From Acidobacteriota bacterium (lineage in GTDB: Bacteria > Acidobacteriota > Terriglobia > Terriglobales > Acidobacteriaceae), in NCBI GenBank assembly GCA_003225175.1, contig QIBA01000030.1, forward strand, positions 63,762 to 127,761: a stretch of 64,000 bases of DNA, read 5' to 3'. How positions within the stretch are numbered: position 1 is the first letter of the stretch; each line of letters opens with the position of its first letter. Below, piece by piece: positions 33,630 to 56,318 of the stretch. The notes beneath the pieces were generated by a model that saw only the letters and a program-made list of their open reading frames with translations, was not told the DNA's origin and searched no databases. The translations under genes were made by a program, and so were the position numbers.

Positions 33630-33692
33630 TTTAACACGGAGGTCACGAGGCTTCGAAGAAAACCCTCCCAATCTCCGTGTCCTCTATATATT
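33630..33692. repeat. Short CACGGAGG inverted-end element
   Basis: AACACGGAGG begins at 33632, 7 nt after the stop at 33625, and the opposite imperfect arm (CTCCGTGTCCTC) is at ~33673-33684. It resembles the ends of the larger elements at 50638 and 54829 with the interior deleted. Placed between convergent genes, it could act as a bidirectional terminator. Confidence 0.6.
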
Positions 33693-49712: not shown

Positions 49713-50612
49713 TTGTCCATCACGACCACACCCAGCGGACCGCGTAAAGCTCTTGGACGCGGACTCGAATCTTTACTTCCTTCGCGGCGACCAGCCGAGC
49801 CGCCGCCGACAGCGCACATTCAGGGGCAATCTGTCCGCGATTTGCCGGTTACAGAGATCGATCCCAATCCCTACCAGACACGTGCGCATATCGATGACCA
49901 GGCGCTGAACGAGCTGGCTGCTTCGATTCTAGTCAACGGAATCGTGCAGCCGATCGTCGTTCGCCCGATGAATGGGCGCTTTCAGCTCATCGCTGGTGAA
50001 CGCCGCTGGCGCGCCTCGCAGAAGATCGGCAGGGAATTCGTTCCGGCGGTAATCAAGCAGGTTTCGAACGAACAGGCGATGGAGATGACCATCGTCGAGA
50101 ACCTGCAGCGCGAAGGCCTCAATCCCATGGAAGAGGCCCGCGCCTTCGACCGTCTCTCGCGCGAATTCAACCTCACCCAGGAGCAGATGTCGCAGAAGAC
50201 AGGAAAAGATCGCGCCTCGATCGCGAACCTGATGCGACTCCTGCGGCTGCCGGAAGCTATTCAGCAGTCGATTGAGAAAGGGGAACTCACTGCAGGACAC
50301 GCGAAAGTGCTTCTCATGCTCGATTCTCCTGAAGCGATCCTTGCAGCCGCGCAGAAAATTCGCTCCGCGTCGCTCTCCGTCCGCCAAACCGAGGAGCTGA
50401 TTCACCGCTTGCTGGCTCCGCAGGACGGAACTGCGCAGGACCCCAAGCCTCAGCGCGTAGTCGATCCCAACGTCCGCGCCGCCGAGCAGGAACTGCAGCG
50501 GGCGCTGGGGGTGCGTGTCACGATTCGTGACAACAAGGGGAAGGGCAAGATCATCATCGAGTACGCGTCACTCGAAGATTTCGATCGCATAGTAGAAACC
50601 CTTAGTAAGTGA
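49713..50612 (+). CDS. parB: Chromosome-partitioning protein ParB (Spo0J)
   Basis: A 299-residue CTP-dependent DNA clamp that loads at parS. N-terminal ParA-contact region KALGRGLESLLPS (~12-24), ParB N-domain with CTP-binding GERRWRA (95-101) and the box II-like IVENLQREGLNPMEEARAF, HTH segment EQMSQKTGKDRASIANLMRL (~146-165) and a C-terminal dimerisation domain (~245-299). Start is TTG 49713 with GGGAG 7 nt upstream. Four parS sites lie within 1.8 kb upstream. A CACGGAGG-ended element follows 25 nt after the stop. Confidence 0.96.
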   Translation: MSITTTPSGPRKALGRGLESLLPSRRPAEPPPTAHIQGQSVRDLPVTEIDPNPYQTRAHIDDQALNELAASILVNGIVQPIVVRPMNGRFQLIAGERRWRASQKIGREFVPAVIKQVSNEQAMEMTIVENLQREGLNPMEEARAFDRLSREFNLTQEQMSQKTGKDRASIANLMRLLRLPEAIQQSIEKGELTAGHAKVLLMLDSPEAILAAAQKIRSASLSVRQTEELIHRLLAPQDGTAQDPKPQRVVDPNVRAAEQELQRALGVRVTIRDNKGKGKIIIEYASLEDFDRIVETLSK

Positions 50613-50637
50613 TGAGTCATGGAGCAAACCAAAATCA

Positions 50638-50820
50638 TTGAACACGGAGGGCCCGGAGGGTGGGGAGGGCTTCTTTACGATCGTGGATACCGGTCGGGAA
50701 ATTTTAGATTGGGGCATTTCAACGCGATGTATGCACTCGTTCAGATGAAACGTGAGTTTCCGCGCTGAGCGCCAGTTGCCACGTTTTTCCCTCCCAAACC
50801 TCCGTGTCCTCCGTGTTCAA
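50638..50820. mobile_element. 183-bp MITE-like element with CACGGAGG terminal inverted repeats
   Basis: Left end 50638-50669 (TTGAACACGGAGGGCCCGGA and on) and right end 50789-50820 (the inverse, ending CCTCCGTGTTCAA) form ~32-bp imperfect terminal inverted repeats. The interior matches the 150-bp units at 54511-54943 and, on the minus strand, carries codons resembling the GxxExxY C-terminus (GAG-TGC-ATA-CAT-CGC-GTT). It appears to be an internally deleted derivative of the element at 54829-55336. Lies between parB and polA. Confidence 0.7.
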
Positions 50821-50886
50821 TCCTGTCTTGGTTTTGCTTTGCTCCGTGTTCCCGTGGTGAATCCGCTGTTAGACTTTTCCTAGACC

Positions 50887-53688
50887 TTGTCCGCGAAGCC
50901 ACAACCCGAAGCCCGTGCGCAAATCTTCCTGATCGACGCTATGTCCTTTATTTTCAGGGCATACCACGCCATGCAGCGGCAGCGCCCGATGTCGACACGC
51001 ACTGGGATTCCGACCGCGGCAACATTTGTCTTCGTGAACATGCTGAACAAGCTGCGCGATGACTTTCATCCCCAGTATCTTGCGGCTGTTTTTGACGTTT
51101 CCGCGCCAACGTTTCGTGATGAACAGGCGAAGGCGATCGCCTCGGTCAAGAAGTATGACAGCAAAACGCAGACATACCAGGAGATCGCTTACGGCGGCTA
51201 CAAGGCTAATCGCAAGGAGATGCCGCACGATCTGGCGCAGCAGCTTCCCTACATTCGGCGCGCGCTTGAGGCATACCGTATTCCCATTTTGGAACAGCCG
51301 GGATTCGAAGCCGACGACGTAATCGGCACGCTGGCGCATAAGGCAGTGGCAGCGGGATATCCCGTGTACGTCGTCTCCAGCGACAAGGACATGCTGCAGC
51401 TCGTCAGCGACAGCATCTGCGTCTTGAATCCCCCAAAGGACAATCTGATTTGCGACGCGGCCAAGGTCGAGGAAATTCTGGGTGTCGGTCCGCAGCAGGT
51501 TATCGATGTAATGGCCTTGCGCGGCGACTCCATCGATAACATTCCCGGCGCGCCGGGAATCGGCGACAAAGGATCGGTTGAGCTGATCAAGCGCTTTGGA
51601 TCGGTCGAGAACCTCCTCAATCATGCCGAGGAGGTAGAGAAGAAGACATACCGTGAATCGCTGCTGAATAATCGCGACGTTGTCCTGCGCAGCAAGGAGC
51701 TAGTCACGATCGATACCAACGTTCCTGTGCATCTGAATGTCGAAACCATGCAGGCGCAGGAGCCCGATTACGAAGCTTGCCGCCTACTCTTCAATGAGCT
51801 TGAGTTCACCACGCTGCTGAAGAACTTCGTACAGACGACTGATCAGGCGAACGTCGAATACGGCGCACTCAATAGCGAGGCACAACTCCAAGAGCTGCTC
51901 AAGCAAGCCAAAGGTGGCGAGATTGGAATCGTAATCTGTGCTCCGCCCACAACGTCAGCCGGCACGGAGCAAAAAGAAGAAGAAGAGCCGGAGCTTCCGC
52001 TGCTCAACATAAAGCAACAGGGCTGCGATCCAGTGGAGCTCGCCATCTCGGTCGAGCAGAACAAGGCAGCCAGCGTTCGACTTGGCGATAACGGTCTCAC
52101 CGAGGCGCTTCGAAATGTTCTGGCAGATCGGTCGATTCCCAAATCGGTACACGACTACAAGTCTGCTCTTCGCATGCTCTCCAGGTTTGCTGCACAAACA
52201 AAATCCCCTGGGCCAACCGCTGCAGAGCCACAGCCGAGGGCGGCTGTGCCGCAGGAGAAAACTGAGCTTCCGCTGGCTGGGGTGCGGGATGACGTGATGC
52301 TCTTCTCCTATCTGCTGAATCCGACCTACAGCAGCCACACCTTGCCCGAAGTTGCTTTGCGCCGATTCAACTTGCAGCTTTCAGGAATGACGGCAGAAGC
52401 TGCCGACCTGACCCTTCGGCTCGCTCGCACACTGCGGCAGCAGGTCGAGGATGAGGCCGGCCTCATCAATGTCTACGACACCATCGACCTTCCTCTTGCT
52501 CCAGTGCTGGCGCGGATGGAATCAGCCGGCGTGAAGATTGACACGGCGGCTCTGGGCCATATGGCAGTCGATCTCGAGAAGCAGTGTGATGCCAGAGCAA
52601 AGGAGATCCACGCTCTCGCTGGAGAAGAGTTCAACGTCAACTCTCCCCGGCAGCTTGGCGAGGTGCTCTTCAACAAGCTTGGGCTGCCCAAGCCAGTGAA
52701 GTATGGAAAAGGCAAGATGATCTCGACCGCAGTCGACGTTCTGGAAGACTTGGCTGCCGAGCACGAGATTGCAGGTAAAGTCCTCGGCTTCCGCCAGCTC
52801 TCGAAGCTGAAGTCAACCTATGTGGACTCGCTGCCAATGCTTGTCGATCCGCAGAGCGGACGCGTCCATACGACCTTCAACGCGGCAGCGACCGCCACCG
52901 GCCGGCTTTCGTCAACAAACCCGAATCTGCAAAACATTCCCATTCGCACCGAGCTTGGCCGCGAAATTCGTTCGGCGTTCATTGCGGAGCCAGGCAACGT
53001 ACTCCTCGCCGCCGACTATTCGCAGATTGAGCTGCGCTTACTGGCCCATTTCTCCGACGATCCACTGCTGGTCGAAGCCTACCGCCGCGAAGACGATATC
53101 CATCAGCTCACCGCAAGCGAAGTCTTTGGCGTTCCGCCGATGTTGATCACCGCCGAGCATCGCAGCCGCGCCAAGGCTGTGAACTTCGGAATCGTCTACG
53201 GCATATCGCCTTTCGGTCTTGCTGCCCAGCTGGGAATCGATCAGAAAGAGGCAAAGAAGTACATCGAGACTTACTTCGAGCGCTACAAAGGCGTGCGTGC
53301 CTTCATCGAGCGCGTCCTCGACGAGACCCGCCGCGAACAGCGCGTGCGCACTCTGTTCGGCCGGGTTCGCCCCATCCCCGACATCAACAGCAAAAACGCC
53401 AACATGCGCGGTTTCGCCGAGCGCACGGCGGTGAATACGCCACTGCAAGGCACCGCTGCCGACGTGATCAAGCTCGCGATGATCAAGATCGACGCCGAAC
53501 TCTCGCATCGCAAACTGCGCTCCCGGATGACGCTCCAGGTGCACGATGAACTCGTCTTTGAAGTCCCGGAAAAGGAAATCGATACCATGCGCGAACTGGT
53601 CTGCGAGCACATGCAGAACGTGTACCCATTCAAAGTGCCGCTTATGGTGGACATTGGTGTAGGGCACAATTGGCGCGACTTGCAATAG
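50887..53688 (+). CDS. polA: DNA polymerase I
   Basis: A 933-residue family A polymerase for Okazaki-fragment processing and repair. The N-terminal 5' nuclease domain (~12-310) has FLIDAMSFIFRAYHAM, PGFEADDVIGTLAH, SSDKDMLQLV and GDSIDNIPGAPGIGDKGS. The middle (~330-560) should be the 3'-5' exonuclease, but I find no DxE motif where E. coli has it and the region is Glu/Pro-rich, so proofreading is probably lost, as in Taq. Polymerase motifs: A DYSQIELRLLAHFSDD (~709), B RSRAKAVNFGIVYGIS, C VHDELVFEVP (~884). TTG 50887 start; the only initiator before the conserved region. Confidence 0.96.
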   Translation: MSAKPQPEARAQIFLIDAMSFIFRAYHAMQRQRPMSTRTGIPTAATFVFVNMLNKLRDDFHPQYLAAVFDVSAPTFRDEQAKAIASVKKYDSKTQTYQEIAYGGYKANRKEMPHDLAQQLPYIRRALEAYRIPILEQPGFEADDVIGTLAHKAVAAGYPVYVVSSDKDMLQLVSDSICVLNPPKDNLICDAAKVEEILGVGPQQVIDVMALRGDSIDNIPGAPGIGDKGSVELIKRFGSVENLLNHAEEVEKKTYRESLLNNRDVVLRSKELVTIDTNVPVHLNVETMQAQEPDYEACRLLFNELEFTTLLKNFVQTTDQANVEYGALNSEAQLQELLKQAKGGEIGIVICAPPTTSAGTEQKEEEEPELPLLNIKQQGCDPVELAISVEQNKAASVRLGDNGLTEALRNVLADRSIPKSVHDYKSALRMLSRFAAQTKSPGPTAAEPQPRAAVPQEKTELPLAGVRDDVMLFSYLLNPTYSSHTLPEVALRRFNLQLSGMTAEAADLTLRLARTLRQQVEDEAGLINVYDTIDLPLAPVLARMESAGVKIDTAALGHMAVDLEKQCDARAKEIHALAGEEFNVNSPRQLGEVLFNKLGLPKPVKYGKGKMISTAVDVLEDLAAEHEIAGKVLGFRQLSKLKSTYVDSLPMLVDPQSGRVHTTFNAAATATGRLSSTNPNLQNIPIRTELGREIRSAFIAEPGNVLLAADYSQIELRLLAHFSDDPLLVEAYRREDDIHQLTASEVFGVPPMLITAEHRSRAKAVNFGIVYGISPFGLAAQLGIDQKEAKKYIETYFERYKGVRAFIERVLDETRREQRVRTLFGRVRPIPDINSKNANMRGFAERTAVNTPLQGTAADVIKLAMIKIDAELSHRKLRSRMTLQVHDELVFEVPEKEIDTMRELVCEHMQNVYPFKVPLMVDIGVGHNWRDLQ

Positions 53689-53694
53689 CCTCAA

Positions 53695-53722
53695 GAACGT
53701 GGATCCGGGCAGATCCACGTTC
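53695..53722 (+). terminator. Hairpin after polA
   Basis: Perfect 11-bp stem GAACGTGGATC/GATCCACGTTC with a 6-nt loop, 6 nt after the polA stop. The following sequence is AAAAG and not a T-run, so it may stabilise the 3' end rather than terminate. Confidence 0.5.
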
Positions 53723-53771
53723 AAAAGTCAGCTTCGTCCTTTTGCGATAGTCTCTCTCTGATCACGCGCAC

Positions 53772-54509
53772 ATGAACTCCAACAATCCATCCGGAACAGA
53801 CTTCTCAAACAACAAATATAAAGTGCTGGCTATCGATATCGGCGGCACCAACGTGAAGCTGCTGGCCAGCGGACAAAAAGAAATGCGCAAGGTTCCTTCT
53901 GGCCCGACCCTCACCGCGCGCGAGATGGTGAGCCAGGTAAAGGCCGCTGTGGAGGACTGGCCTTACGAGGTCATCTCCATCGGCTATCCCGGACCGGTTG
54001 TGCAGGGCCGTCCCATCAGCGAGCCCTTCAATCTCGCACCAGGATGGGTCAAGTTTGATTTCCGAAAAGCCTTTGGTAAGCCTGTCAAGGTCATCAACGA
54101 CGCCGCCATGCAAGCCCTCGGCAGCTACAAAAAAGGCCGAATGCTCTTTCTCGGACTCGGTACCGGATTGGGATCGGCGATGATCGTCGACGGCGTCCTG
54201 CAACCCATGGAACTCGCCCATCTTCCCTACAAGAAAGGACGCACGTATGAGGACTACCTCGGCCGGCGCGGCCTCGAACGCCTCGGCCAAAAGAAGTGGC
54301 AAAAGAATGTCTTCGAAGCCGTGGTGCAATTGCGGCAAGCGGTTCAAGCCGACGACGTCGTCTTAGGCGGCGGCAACGCCAAAAAGCTAACCGATCTCCC
54401 CGCCGGAGTGCGCCTCGGAAGCAACAACAACGCCTTCCTCGGCGGCTTCCGCATGTGGCAGGACGAAAGCGTACGCCACGGCATTGTTCGGACCGCGGGC
54501 TCCAAGTAG
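53772..54509 (+). CDS. ROK-family sugar kinase, polyphosphate-glucokinase-like
   Basis: A 245-residue kinase. The N-terminal phosphate-binding AIDIGGTNVKLLASG (~15-29), SIGYPGPV (~74-81), VINDAAMQALGSY with the catalytic Asp (~107-119), LFLGLGTGLGSAMIVDG (~126-142) and LPYKKGRTYEDYLG are the pattern of PpgK-like ROK kinases that phosphorylate glucose with polyphosphate or ATP. The C-terminus (VRTAGSK) coincides with the start of the repeat array that follows, so the last few residues may derive from the repeat. ATG 53772. Confidence 0.85.
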   Translation: MNSNNPSGTDFSNNKYKVLAIDIGGTNVKLLASGQKEMRKVPSGPTLTAREMVSQVKAAVEDWPYEVISIGYPGPVVQGRPISEPFNLAPGWVKFDFRKAFGKPVKVINDAAMQALGSYKKGRMLFLGLGTGLGSAMIVDGVLQPMELAHLPYKKGRTYEDYLGRRGLERLGQKKWQKNVFEAVVQLRQAVQADDVVLGGGNAKKLTDLPAGVRLGSNNNAFLGGFRMWQDESVRHGIVRTAGSK

Positions 54510-54510
54510 A

Positions 54511-54943
54511 CTGCGAAACCCAAAAAATTGAACACGGAGGTCACGGAGGTTGGGGAGGGCTTCTTTACGATCATGGATACCGGTTGGGTAATTTTAGATT
54601 GGGGCCATTTACAACGCTACGTATGCCCTAGTTCGAATGGGACCGCGGGCTCGAAGTAAACTACGAAACCCAAAAAATTTGAACACGGAGGTCACGGAGG
54701 TTGGGGAGGGCTTCTTTACGATCGTGGATACCGGTTGGGCAATTTTAGATTGGGGCATTTACAACGCGATGTATGCCCTCGTTCGGATGGGACCGTGGGC
54801 TCGAAGTAAACTACGAAACCCAAAAAAGTGAACACGGAGGTCACGGAGGATGGGGAGGGGCTTCTTTACTGTCGTGGATACCGGTTGGGTAATTCTAGAT
54901 TTGGGCCATTTACAACGCGATGAATGCCTTCTTTTAGATGAGT
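54511..54943. repeat. Three tandem ~150-bp CACGGAGG units
   Basis: Units start at 54511, 54661 and 54811 (exact 150-bp period), each with CTACGAAACCCAAAAAA-, AACACGGAGGTCACGGAGG, a GGGGAGGGCTTCTTTAC block, and a segment that reads on the minus strand as the GxxExxY C-terminus (GAGGGCATACATCGCGTTGT). The third unit runs into the GxxExxY gene itself. The part just before each AACACGG matches the tail of the ROK gene. Confidence 0.85.
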
Positions 54944-55336
54944 GACGTTGAAATGATTAGTAGCCCGACTTTTTTCTTACTTAATCGCAGATACGACAGC
55001 AATTGTGCTTTATGCACTGGCGCAACAGCCTCGATTGACTTTATCTCCACCACAATCTCATCGGCGACCAGGAGATCGATGCGATAACCAAGATCCATCT
55101 TCACACCCTGGTACACAAGAGGTAGCGGCACTTGAGCTTTGACGTCCAATCCTGCTTTGCGAAGTTCATATGCAAGGCAAGCTTCATAAGCGCTTTCAAG
55201 TAATCCAGGCCCAAGCTCTGAGTGAACGGCCAAAGCTGCCTTAATAATTTCGTGAGTTAACTCAGAATGTGAGACTGCCCGCCTGGCGCCTGTTTCCACG
55301 TTTTGCCTCCCCGCCCTCCGTGACCTCCGTGTTCAA
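54829..55336 (-). mobile_element. CACGGAGG-ended element carrying a GxxExxY gene
   Basis: Left end TGAACACGGAGGTCACGGAG (54829 on) and right end CCTCCCCGCCCTCCGTGACC...GTTCAA (55306-55336) are inverted copies enclosing one gene, ~508 bp in all. The right end also places GGGGAGG 6 nt before the gene's GTG start, so the element's end doubles as the ribosome-binding site. Flanked by three direct partial units on the left and one inverted unit on the right. No flanking target-site duplication is evident to me. Confidence 0.7.
54934..55299 (-). CDS. GxxExxY protein, PD-(D/E)xK nuclease-like
   Basis: A 121-residue GxxExxY family protein (name motif G32-LLESA-Y38). GYRIDLLV with Asp75 and VVEIKSIE with Glu85-x-Lys87 form the D-(x)n-ExK signature of the PD-(D/E)xK nuclease superfamily, to which this family has been assigned. 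The first residues (METGARRAV) precede the usual start region HSELTHEIIKAAL; start GTG 55299. The C-terminus is shortened: after VGLLI the frame shifts to ISTSLI and stops, whereas adding one A near 54970 restores NFNVTHLKEGIHRVVN, the expected end. Codes within an inverted-repeat-bounded element. Biochemical role of the family is unknown. Confidence 0.8.
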   Translation of the reverse strand: METGARRAVSHSELTHEIIKAALAVHSELGPGLLESAYEACLAYELRKAGLDVKAQVPLPLVYQGVKMDLGYRIDLLVADEIVVEIKSIEAVAPVHKAQLLSYLRLSKKKVGLLIISTSLI

Positions 55337-55497
55337 TTTCTTGGGGTTCGCATTCTACTTCGAGCCCGGAGTCCTCACAAAGCCAGAGGGCAAACATCGC
55401 GTTGTAGATGGCCCGAATGGCCCAAATCTTAAAGATCCCGTTGCAGTATCCAAAAATCGAAGCAACCCTCCCAAATCTCCGTGACCTCCGTGTTCAA
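55306..55497. repeat. Inverted copy of the CACGGAGG unit
   Basis: Bounded by CCTCCGTGACCTCCGTGTTC at both ends (55306-55336 and 55466-55497), with an interior matching the left-hand units in reverse orientation. It stops 5 nt from the stop codon of the next minus-strand gene (55503). Confidence 0.8.
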
Positions 55498-55502
55498 TGT
55501 TC

Positions 55503-56318
55503 TTACCGCCGTTCCAAGCCCAAGCGCGTAGCTTTCAGCGTAGCCGACAACGATTCCCGCGGAATGGAAGTGATGAACGGTCCGATCAGCCAGCCCAGGC
55601 CAGTGGGCACGTCGCGTGTCAGGGAGATTGCGTCGCAGCGGACGTAGACTCCGCCGTCCCGTTCCAAGAATCGCCAGTACGTATCCATGCTCCACATGTA
55701 TCCTTCACCGTGCCCTGCTGGCTTCTGGCGCTCATCGGGTTGATTCGGATTCTCGACTTCATTGACGCGCGTCGTGTGCGATCGACTATAGGCGCGTTGC
55801 GCATCGAGCCTGTAGTAATGTGCGTCGTGCTCCGTGTCCAGGACCACGGTGATGATCTTTTTCTTGGCAAAGCGCAGGTAGGCAACGAAGTGATCGTCGT
55901 CGCGATGCAGCAGCTTTGAGCGCGCAACGTCCGGCTTGTAGTACTGCTGATGATGGTCGTAATCCTCGAGAAACGAGAGCACCTTGCCGAGGTTCGTGTT
56001 GGGAATGAAGACGAAACCTGACCAGTGATGTATCAGTCCGTCCGGCACTTTGGCAGCTTTAGAGAAAGCCAGCGTCGCTTTCTCGATGACGATCTCGCCC
56101 TGCTTGAGCTGCTCGTCACGAGGAGTAATGTCTCCCCAGAAGAAATTAGGGCCACTTTGCTCCGCGTCCACCTTCTTCTCAGCTAACGAGAGATATTGGT
56201 CGTATGCGTCGCGCGTCTTCTGCTTAAGATCAAAGCCGGCTGCTGCCGGCGCGAGCACAAGTGTTAAGAGAAGGACAAGCGAGAAATGAATTCGGCCGGA
56301 AAACCTCCTCAGGCGCAC
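55503..56318 (-). CDS. Exported START/SRPBCC-like hypothetical protein
   Basis: A ~271-residue secreted protein with an N-terminal signal peptide (RLRRFSGRIHFSLVLLLTLV core, cleavage near APAAAG). The body resembles a START/SRPBCC helix-grip fold: FVFIPNTNLGKVLSFLEDYD, ITVVLDTEHDAHYY, YMWSMDTYWRFLERDGGVYV and a C-terminal amphipathic helix with IPRESLSATLKA. I choose GTG 56318 because it gives a clean signal peptide; the frame extends to 56504 but would overlap the upstream gene. No strong ribosome-binding site. Family function unknown; likely lipid- or small-hydrophobe-binding by analogy with the fold. Confidence 0.7.
   Translation of the reverse strand: MRLRRFSGRIHFSLVLLLTLVLAPAAAGFDLKQKTRDAYDQYLSLAEKKVDAEQSGPNFFWGDITPRDEQLKQGEIVIEKATLAFSKAAKVPDGLIHHWSGFVFIPNTNLGKVLSFLEDYDHHQQYYKPDVARSKLLHRDDDHFVAYLRFAKKKIITVVLDTEHDAHYYRLDAQRAYSRSHTTRVNEVENPNQPDERQKPAGHGEGYMWSMDTYWRFLERDGGVYVRCDAISLTRDVPTGLGWLIGPFITSIPRESLSATLKATRLGLERR

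Follow-up and report, generated by a model that had tools for sequence, protein, structure and literature searches.

Small GxxExxY genes between inverted iteron arms: a candidate family of mobile elements around a predicted PD-(D/E)xK nuclease

In RAYT/REP systems (repetitive extragenic palindromic sequences, REP, and bacterial interspersed mosaic elements, BIME), one nuclease gene is accompanied by many short, palindromic, non-autonomous copies between genes, and the RAYT itself is an HUH tyrosine transposase. The parts of published papers drawn on here describe REP palindromes as tagged with GTAG or CGTC (PMC3733652), the intervening sequence (IVS) of Coxiella 23S rRNA as having terminal inverted repeats, a 28-bp stem and tandem heptamers and as excised by RNase III (PMC4990558), and the TAACTGA repeats of marine Beggiatoaceae as intergenic tandem heptamers, for which their author considered mobility or a binding protein (PMC4679880). 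A variant of this poorly understood kind, with a small gene between inverted, repeat-built arms, is described here from a 64,000-nt stretch of the Acidobacteriota contig QIBA01000030.1 (positions 63,762 to 127,761), hereafter the window. The gene belongs to the GxxExxY family, its arms consist of 7-nt iterons, and the unit probably represents a mobile element.

The element was delimited by an inverted match at 54829..55337 (minus strand). Its left arm (54831..54859, plus strand) carries CACGGAG iterons at 54833 and 54842, and its right arm (55306..55337, minus strand) carries them on the minus strand at 55325-55331 and 55316-55322. The open reading frame (ORF) between them (54934..55299, minus strand) matched TIGR04256 (1.6e-39, 134.8 bits; curated cut-off 35) and PF13366 (2.3e-37, 128.4 bits; curated cut-off 22); the inverted match and the profile hits together confirmed a first-pass annotation of the window, which had proposed inverted ends enclosing one GxxExxY gene. 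That annotation had also taken a shorter copy for a deleted derivative, rightly: the segment at 50637..50821 (minus strand) keeps both arms (33 nt, 88% complementary), the leader and the element's 3' tail, and aligned end to end with 54829-55337, the sole interruption being an internal gap of ~324 nt. Short, without a gene and bounded by the ends of a coding element, it has the make of a miniature inverted-repeat transposable element (MITE). The motif CACGGAGG occurred 13 times in the window (mean 1.99 and maximum 7 in 100 shuffles), and the genome held 134 matches to AACACGGAGGNCACGGAGG with at most 3 mismatches, whereas the reversed control had 2. The proposed name of a CACGGAGG-ended family suits the window, whereas elsewhere this motif is one of many iteron versions. 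The window gene keeps its active-site residues and has a frameshift close to the C-terminus: the ORF stops early, the conserved tail continues in a different frame, and an N-F pair invariant in 62 relatives is absent. From this frameshift, the local copy is probably dead or inactive, and the gene-less copies in the window are therefore probably relics. Relatives carry open-frame copies, and the one other GxxExxY match in the assembly of the window, a fragment lying at the end of a contig, has a CACGAAT arm.

In a Pfam scan of the window gene, PDDEXK_3 was the sole match above cut-off, with Cas_Cas4 below it. Residues D75, E85 and K87, previously singled out as an intact signature, correspond to the invariant D63, E73 and K75 of alignment A1, whose numbering is used below. 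This D...E-x-K active site was invariant in 14 aligned proteins (window protein included) and in 62 aligned proteins, and besides it the GxxExxY alignments hold an invariant Q...Y; the QxxxY motif is linked with RecB-like nucleases. Cas4 proteins carry iron-sulphur cysteines, whereas no cysteine was found in the invariant or nearly invariant columns of the 62-protein alignment. The model of the L034 protein (pLDDT 97.1) had as its best structural match SSO0001, which we take to be a Cas4 protein (Z 9.8, 100 residues, 4.4 Å); a Foldseek search with the same model returned no match at E ≤0.001, and a PDB sequence-profile search none at E up to 1. The GxxExxY protein is predicted to be a minimal PD-(D/E)xK nuclease of Cas4/RecB-like fold. 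It shares with the Cas4, RecB and lambda-exonuclease nucleases a similar fold and the D, E-x-K and Q...Y residues, and differs from them as a minimal domain of ~120 aa, without conserved cysteines and with an iteron-ended unit of its own. The comparison with RAYT/REP systems made in the first-pass annotation holds for the layout of one nuclease gene with many short palindromic non-autonomous intergenic copies and goes no further: the RAYT is an HUH enzyme, whereas the window gene had no HUH match in Pfam, and the element ends are of TTN[CA]AC-CRCNRAK form without GTAG or CGTC tags.

GxxExxY genes were present in 111 of 297 genomes of the phylum, and a scan of species genomes gave at least 579 confirmed stretches. 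With one protein query (tblastn), matches were found in none of 50,697 phage records and in 7 of 72,556 plasmid records, and viral contigs yielded one locus under one degenerate pattern; within these limited searches the genes, common in genomes, were all but missing from phage, plasmid and viral records. The passages of open-access literature that name GxxExxY give no role for the genes and do not treat the repeats.

As the window held inverted arms around its gene, arms were surveyed across the family, an arm being defined as the best inverted match around a gene with a score of at least 29, with displaced spans as controls. Among 201 pooled full-length genes (partial hits left out, some orthologous copies of elements included), 175 had arms, in line with the earlier expectation that GxxExxY genes generally have flanking ends. 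A strict rule of at least two CRCNRAK iterons in each of both arms held for 142 of the 201 genes and for none of 758 displaced spans; the other 59 lacked arms, had degenerate ones or carried different iterons (ACAGGAT, for instance). Of the 30 loci surveyed first, from the window's own genome and from relatives, 28 scored 30-136, and L059 and L061 scored 19 and 20; displaced spans, available at all but two of these loci, scored 16-27; in L061, an iteron hairpin adjoins the gene instead of arms (G054:C6:125008-125072). Within a subset of the pool comprising 80 loci from named genomes and 28 from the phylum, a score above 28 was reached by 85 of 104 testable genes and by 7 of 377 displaced spans (counting only genes with flanks of at least 100 nt, at loci with a full-length hit); the 80 named-genome loci are the best 80 of at least 579 and are therefore biased toward close relatives of the query. 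The sampled records came from Bacteroidota, Cyanobacteria, Chloroflexota, Planctomycetota, Verrucomicrobiota, Proteobacteria and two archaea (L199, score 38; L193, just 17). A held-out set of 39 loci (37 testable genes, 22 meeting the iteron rule; L398 dropped as a copy of L271) had arms in 30 of the 37 genes, and of three plasmid loci read, L370 and L371 were armed and L372 scored 21. Elements were mostly 430-570 bp long, with one gene between two inverted arms, and a typical arm had three 7-nt CRCNRAK iterons spaced 8-10 nt and preceded by TTN[CA]AC.

Other surroundings of GxxExxY genes were also seen: GC-rich palindrome repeats (L308), ACAAAT/GGAAGAT-like units (L372) and CATCACCG-like units (L262, L292 and L306). 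At six loci (L187, L202, L210, L220, L230 and L297), iterons of both orientations lie within each matched arm, so that the gene seemingly sits between two small hairpin copies.

Among elements, iteron positions 2, 4, 5 and 7 differ (CACGGAG, CGCCGAG, CACAAAG, CGCAGAT and other versions), whereas the iterons of any one element agree at them, both inside each arm and across the two arms. Agreement at position 2 was.93 within the same arm,.94 with the other arm and.55 with other elements, and at position 5 it was.95,.95 and.65, respectively. In 77 of the 83 elements whose arms have three iterons each, the spacing was identical in both arms (17 on average and 29 at most after shuffling), and five iteron kinds occurred together in a single genome (e.g. 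G051). Mapped on the protein tree, positions 2, 4, 5 and 7 changed 27, 27, 18 and 3 times (shuffled means 39.8, 54.7, 29.2 and 18.0), and at each position none of 200 within-genome shuffles reached the observed count. By these counts, iteron type follows the protein tree, within genomes too, which indicates that gene and arms travel together. Iterons facing each other in a hairpin agreed no better than others (partner, non-partner and same-arm agreement of.703,.695 and.681 at position 4, and of.964,.944 and.944 at position 2), so that base pairing is not the cause of the agreement, and an RNA-hairpin origin of the agreement was rejected on this ground. Spacers also agreed more between the arms of one element (.64) than with other elements (.44), as did the few bases adjoining the arms, so that some arm-to-arm copying is possible.

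Co-variation between iterons and protein residues was assessed against iteron labels simulated on the tree (FastTree topology), with 426 residue tests per label. Changes at base 5 (G or A) coincided with changes at residue 3 (Thr, or Ser/Ala) 13 times, where 1428 simulations gave a mean of 3.6 and at most 9, and with changes at residue 99 (Leu or not) 9 times, where the null gave a mean of 2.3 and at most 8. Thr3 occurred with G5 in 92 of 92 training elements and in 12 of 12 held-out elements, and A5 in 6 of the 10 held-out elements without Thr, the held-out set being from the same phylum as the training set and not independent of it by descent. Candidate base-4 signals at residues 16 and 109 were obtained on 188 simulations. 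The GxxExxY protein probably reads the iterons of its own element.

The distribution of whole units among relatives was read at the same gene junctions. Joined flanks of four elements (L291, L293, L294 and L303) aligned to 10, 3, 6 and 3 congeners without an element-sized gap, and by hand count at least 11 of 19 joined-flank queries matched across the junction in at least one congener (these four were aligned, the L247/L270 junction was read, and the L301 query was one base short). On a Bacteroides finegoldii plasmid, an element separates radA from the gene that follows, whereas the corresponding stretch of Parabacteroides distasonis measures 13 bp, and in Sphingomonas parapaucimobilis one lies between fabD and fabG, where S. 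paeninsulae shows a short gap only. The arms end inside a short, diverged gap, which places the boundary to a few tens of bases. The empty-site comparison suggested in the first-pass annotation left its reading standing, with relatives without elements at the same junctions and inexact joints. Insertion looks like the simpler reading of this presence and absence of whole units in short intergenic gaps, and parsimony would favour gain over loss. Similar elements (79-85% identity) were found at unrelated sites in six pairs, including L257/L264, L256/L257 and L033/L151, and nine other similar pairs share flanks and are orthologous. Gene number and strict-arm number were correlated (Spearman 0.73 over 61 genomes and 0.74 in a family of 37, uncorrected for descent), as had been anticipated for gene presence and repeat number. 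Strict arms numbered 617 over the 61 relatives, against 14 reversed controls, and occurred in 28 of the 35 genomes with the gene; gene-less copies were numerous mostly where the gene is present. The view of a gene-bearing unit with MITE-like copies was borne out by arms across phyla, empty junctions and number scaling; the local gene is frameshifted.

With DDE insertion sequences and MITEs, these elements share terminal inverted arms, deletion derivatives and presence or absence among relatives. They differ in that the element gene is PDDEXK_3 and not DDE (an overlapping ORF at 55269-55484 lay outside the scan), and in ends that are iteron arrays differing from element to element. A target duplication, which the first-pass annotation had raised, was looked for over 142 elements and not found, the flanks and empty sites being diverged; the top signal (2 nt, offset 0) is, in our reading, expected from symmetric arms. 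The negative speaks against an ordinary DDE reaction but depends on these diverged flanks.

A second, unrelated protein family, the four-helix-bundle IVP (PF05635), proved to have elements of the same make. At 26 of 29 PF05635 loci, arm scores exceeded 28.7, the 99% point of 231 control spans (L120 skipped; L100, L112 and L115 below), and the arms showed ~7-nt iterons, which here too vary from element to element. The window protein had no match to PF05635 at E up to 1. In genus g84, one junction is occupied by a GxxExxY element in G190 and G214, by elements with short tandem iterons (~7 nt) in G182, G221, G322, G265 and G158, where the ORFs matched PF05635 in five of five cases, and by a 106-bp gene-less copy with ACAGGAT-like iterons in G093; G150 has 50 bp and G198 100 bp of other sequence there, and G310 has 7 bp (G228, with one flank missing, was left out). 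With both types of element at one junction, a common host process may do the joining. The GxxExxY elements show the terminal inverted repeats and short tandem repeats that mark a 23S IVS, and they share with the 23S IVS and free-standing PF05635 genes the plan of a single small gene framed by inverted arms that contain short tandem repeats, as well as this very junction. They differ in protein family and in iterons (~7 nt in the latter, CRCNRAK at 8-10 nt in the former), and classic IVSs lie in rRNA, whereas the GxxExxY sites read were all between protein-coding ORFs.

The Beggiatoaceae TAACTGA repeats are likewise intergenic tandem heptamers; the part of that paper drawn on here makes no link to GxxExxY or four-helix genes (PMC4679880). 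Their reverse complement, TCAGTTA, is close to the iterons around PF05635 genes (L094, L102 and L108), a lead only, by which these repeats may be arms of IVP elements.

Taken together, it is probable that the GxxExxY gene and its iteron arms form a mobile family whose protein reads the iterons of its own element. Several GxxExxY subunits would bind the iterons of both ends, the PD-(D/E)xK nuclease would cut the element at its outer ends or close to them, and the DNA would re-enter without target duplication, possibly in single-stranded or hairpin form; fold relatives of GxxExxY work on single strands and on DNA ends. Copies that lack the gene but have matching iterons would be mobilised in trans. 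Sequence comparison demonstrates the unit, its presence and absence, the deletion derivative, the joint inheritance of gene and arms and the base-5 co-variation, while a transposition role of the GxxExxY or the IVP protein can at most be inferred from it.

Several observations weigh against this proposal. Arms were lacking in 26 of the 201 genes, and 33 of the 175 armed genes failed the strict rule. The copy-number correlation is uncorrected for descent, with strict arms present in 5 of 26 genomes without the gene and absent from 7 of the 35 with it. No near-identical copies were found at different sites among 175 elements compared, the best non-orthologous pairs reaching 79-85%, and neither a target duplication nor any other scar was seen over the 142 elements, whose flanks and empty sites are diverged. 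The gaps between genes are too diverged to place exact insertion joints. Residue 99 was weak in the held-out set (A5 with Leu in 3 of 6 elements, with Val in 2 of 13), and base-2 correlations, at residues 27 and 44 in a closest-pair test, failed the tree-aware null. Finally, the IVP elements share architecture and junction although their protein is not known as a nuclease; mobilisation by the GxxExxY nuclease itself, which the first-pass annotation had thought possible, is a proposal here as well.

The sharing of inverted iteron arms and of a junction in one genus by two unrelated protein families is also what would be expected if GxxExxY only bound the iterons, as an accessory, targeting or copy-number factor, and host replication or repair, or an enzyme also serving IVP elements, cut and joined the DNA. 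The missing target duplications agree with this, and the tandem and inverted duplications of flank plus arm in the window (below) fit template switching; catalytic residues invariant in 62 of 62 aligned proteins are, however, not needed by a pure binding protein, and this alternative is regarded as rather unlikely, though the strongest competitor. Much less probable is homing, in which the nuclease would cut gene-less iteron copies and recombination would copy the gene in, making it a drive element on pre-existing repeats. Iteron hits do far exceed gene number in the genome of the window, and the 106-bp gene-less copy in G093 lies where G190 and G214 have a full element, but the element's own arms, which would be cut as well, remain intact, and the 22 aligned congener sites and two others (P. 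distasonis and S. paeninsulae) are empty, without gene-less copies. Least credible of all are IVS-like RNA elements with arms forming a hairpin that RNase III excises and base pairing maintains. The Coxiella stem and heptamers (PMC4990558) speak for them, and the agreement of spacers and arm-adjacent bases leaves room for some pairing or arm copying. Against them, hairpin-opposite iterons agree no better than non-partners or same-arm iterons, and pairing accounts neither for the agreement of one arm's three iterons nor for the residue co-variation.

More broadly, and at slightly less than even odds, the GxxExxY family may stand for a class of transposable elements moved by a lone PD-(D/E)xK nuclease, with ends made of iteron arrays and a fast-evolving code readable from sequence (Thr3 excluding A5), with the four-helix proteins of IVSs as an unrelated second solution. 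If GxxExxY proteins are mobility proteins, a widespread unnamed class of repeats gains an owner. The element-specific iterons offer a natural data set for decoding and testing the DNA specificity of a nuclease, and the shared architecture suggests that the old puzzle of the 23S IVS is part of the same question.

Around the window element, the repeat cluster is larger than first annotated, with direct units of ~150 bp and an inverted unit. The direct units begin at 54516, 54667 and 54817. The first (54516..54666, plus strand) consists of the upstream gene's 3' end (the gene, 53772-54509, is named ROK-like from its sequence), one arm and a remnant of the element's 3' part, and the second (54667..54816, plus strand) is of the same make. 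The inverted unit to the right of the element (55338..55498, minus strand) holds a copy of the upstream-gene 3' end, a remnant of the GxxExxY tail and an outer arm at 55467-55498. As the 3' end of the upstream gene is copied within the units, a joint duplication of flank and arm, later than the insertion, is probable. A single isolated CACGGAGG lies outside the cluster (33635-33642, plus strand), and Rfam gave no match in window positions 50000-56000.

Within the genus of the window (G001-G005), divergence was too great to place a joint either in the gap that precedes the polA-like gene or in the one that follows the ROK-like gene. In G002 and G005 (L129 and L130), the gap downstream of the ROK-like gene has repeats of 7-nt iterons (CAGTTNT; AAGCTNCT) in place of the GxxExxY repeats. 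Within the polA-like ORF, so named by sequence (50887-53688), an imperfect palindrome of ~32 bp surrounds ACAGCCGAGGGCGGCTGT at 52222-52256; short sequences matching it at 88-100% identity are numerous in G001 and in further relatives, which suggests a REP-type repeat that was inserted into coding sequence.

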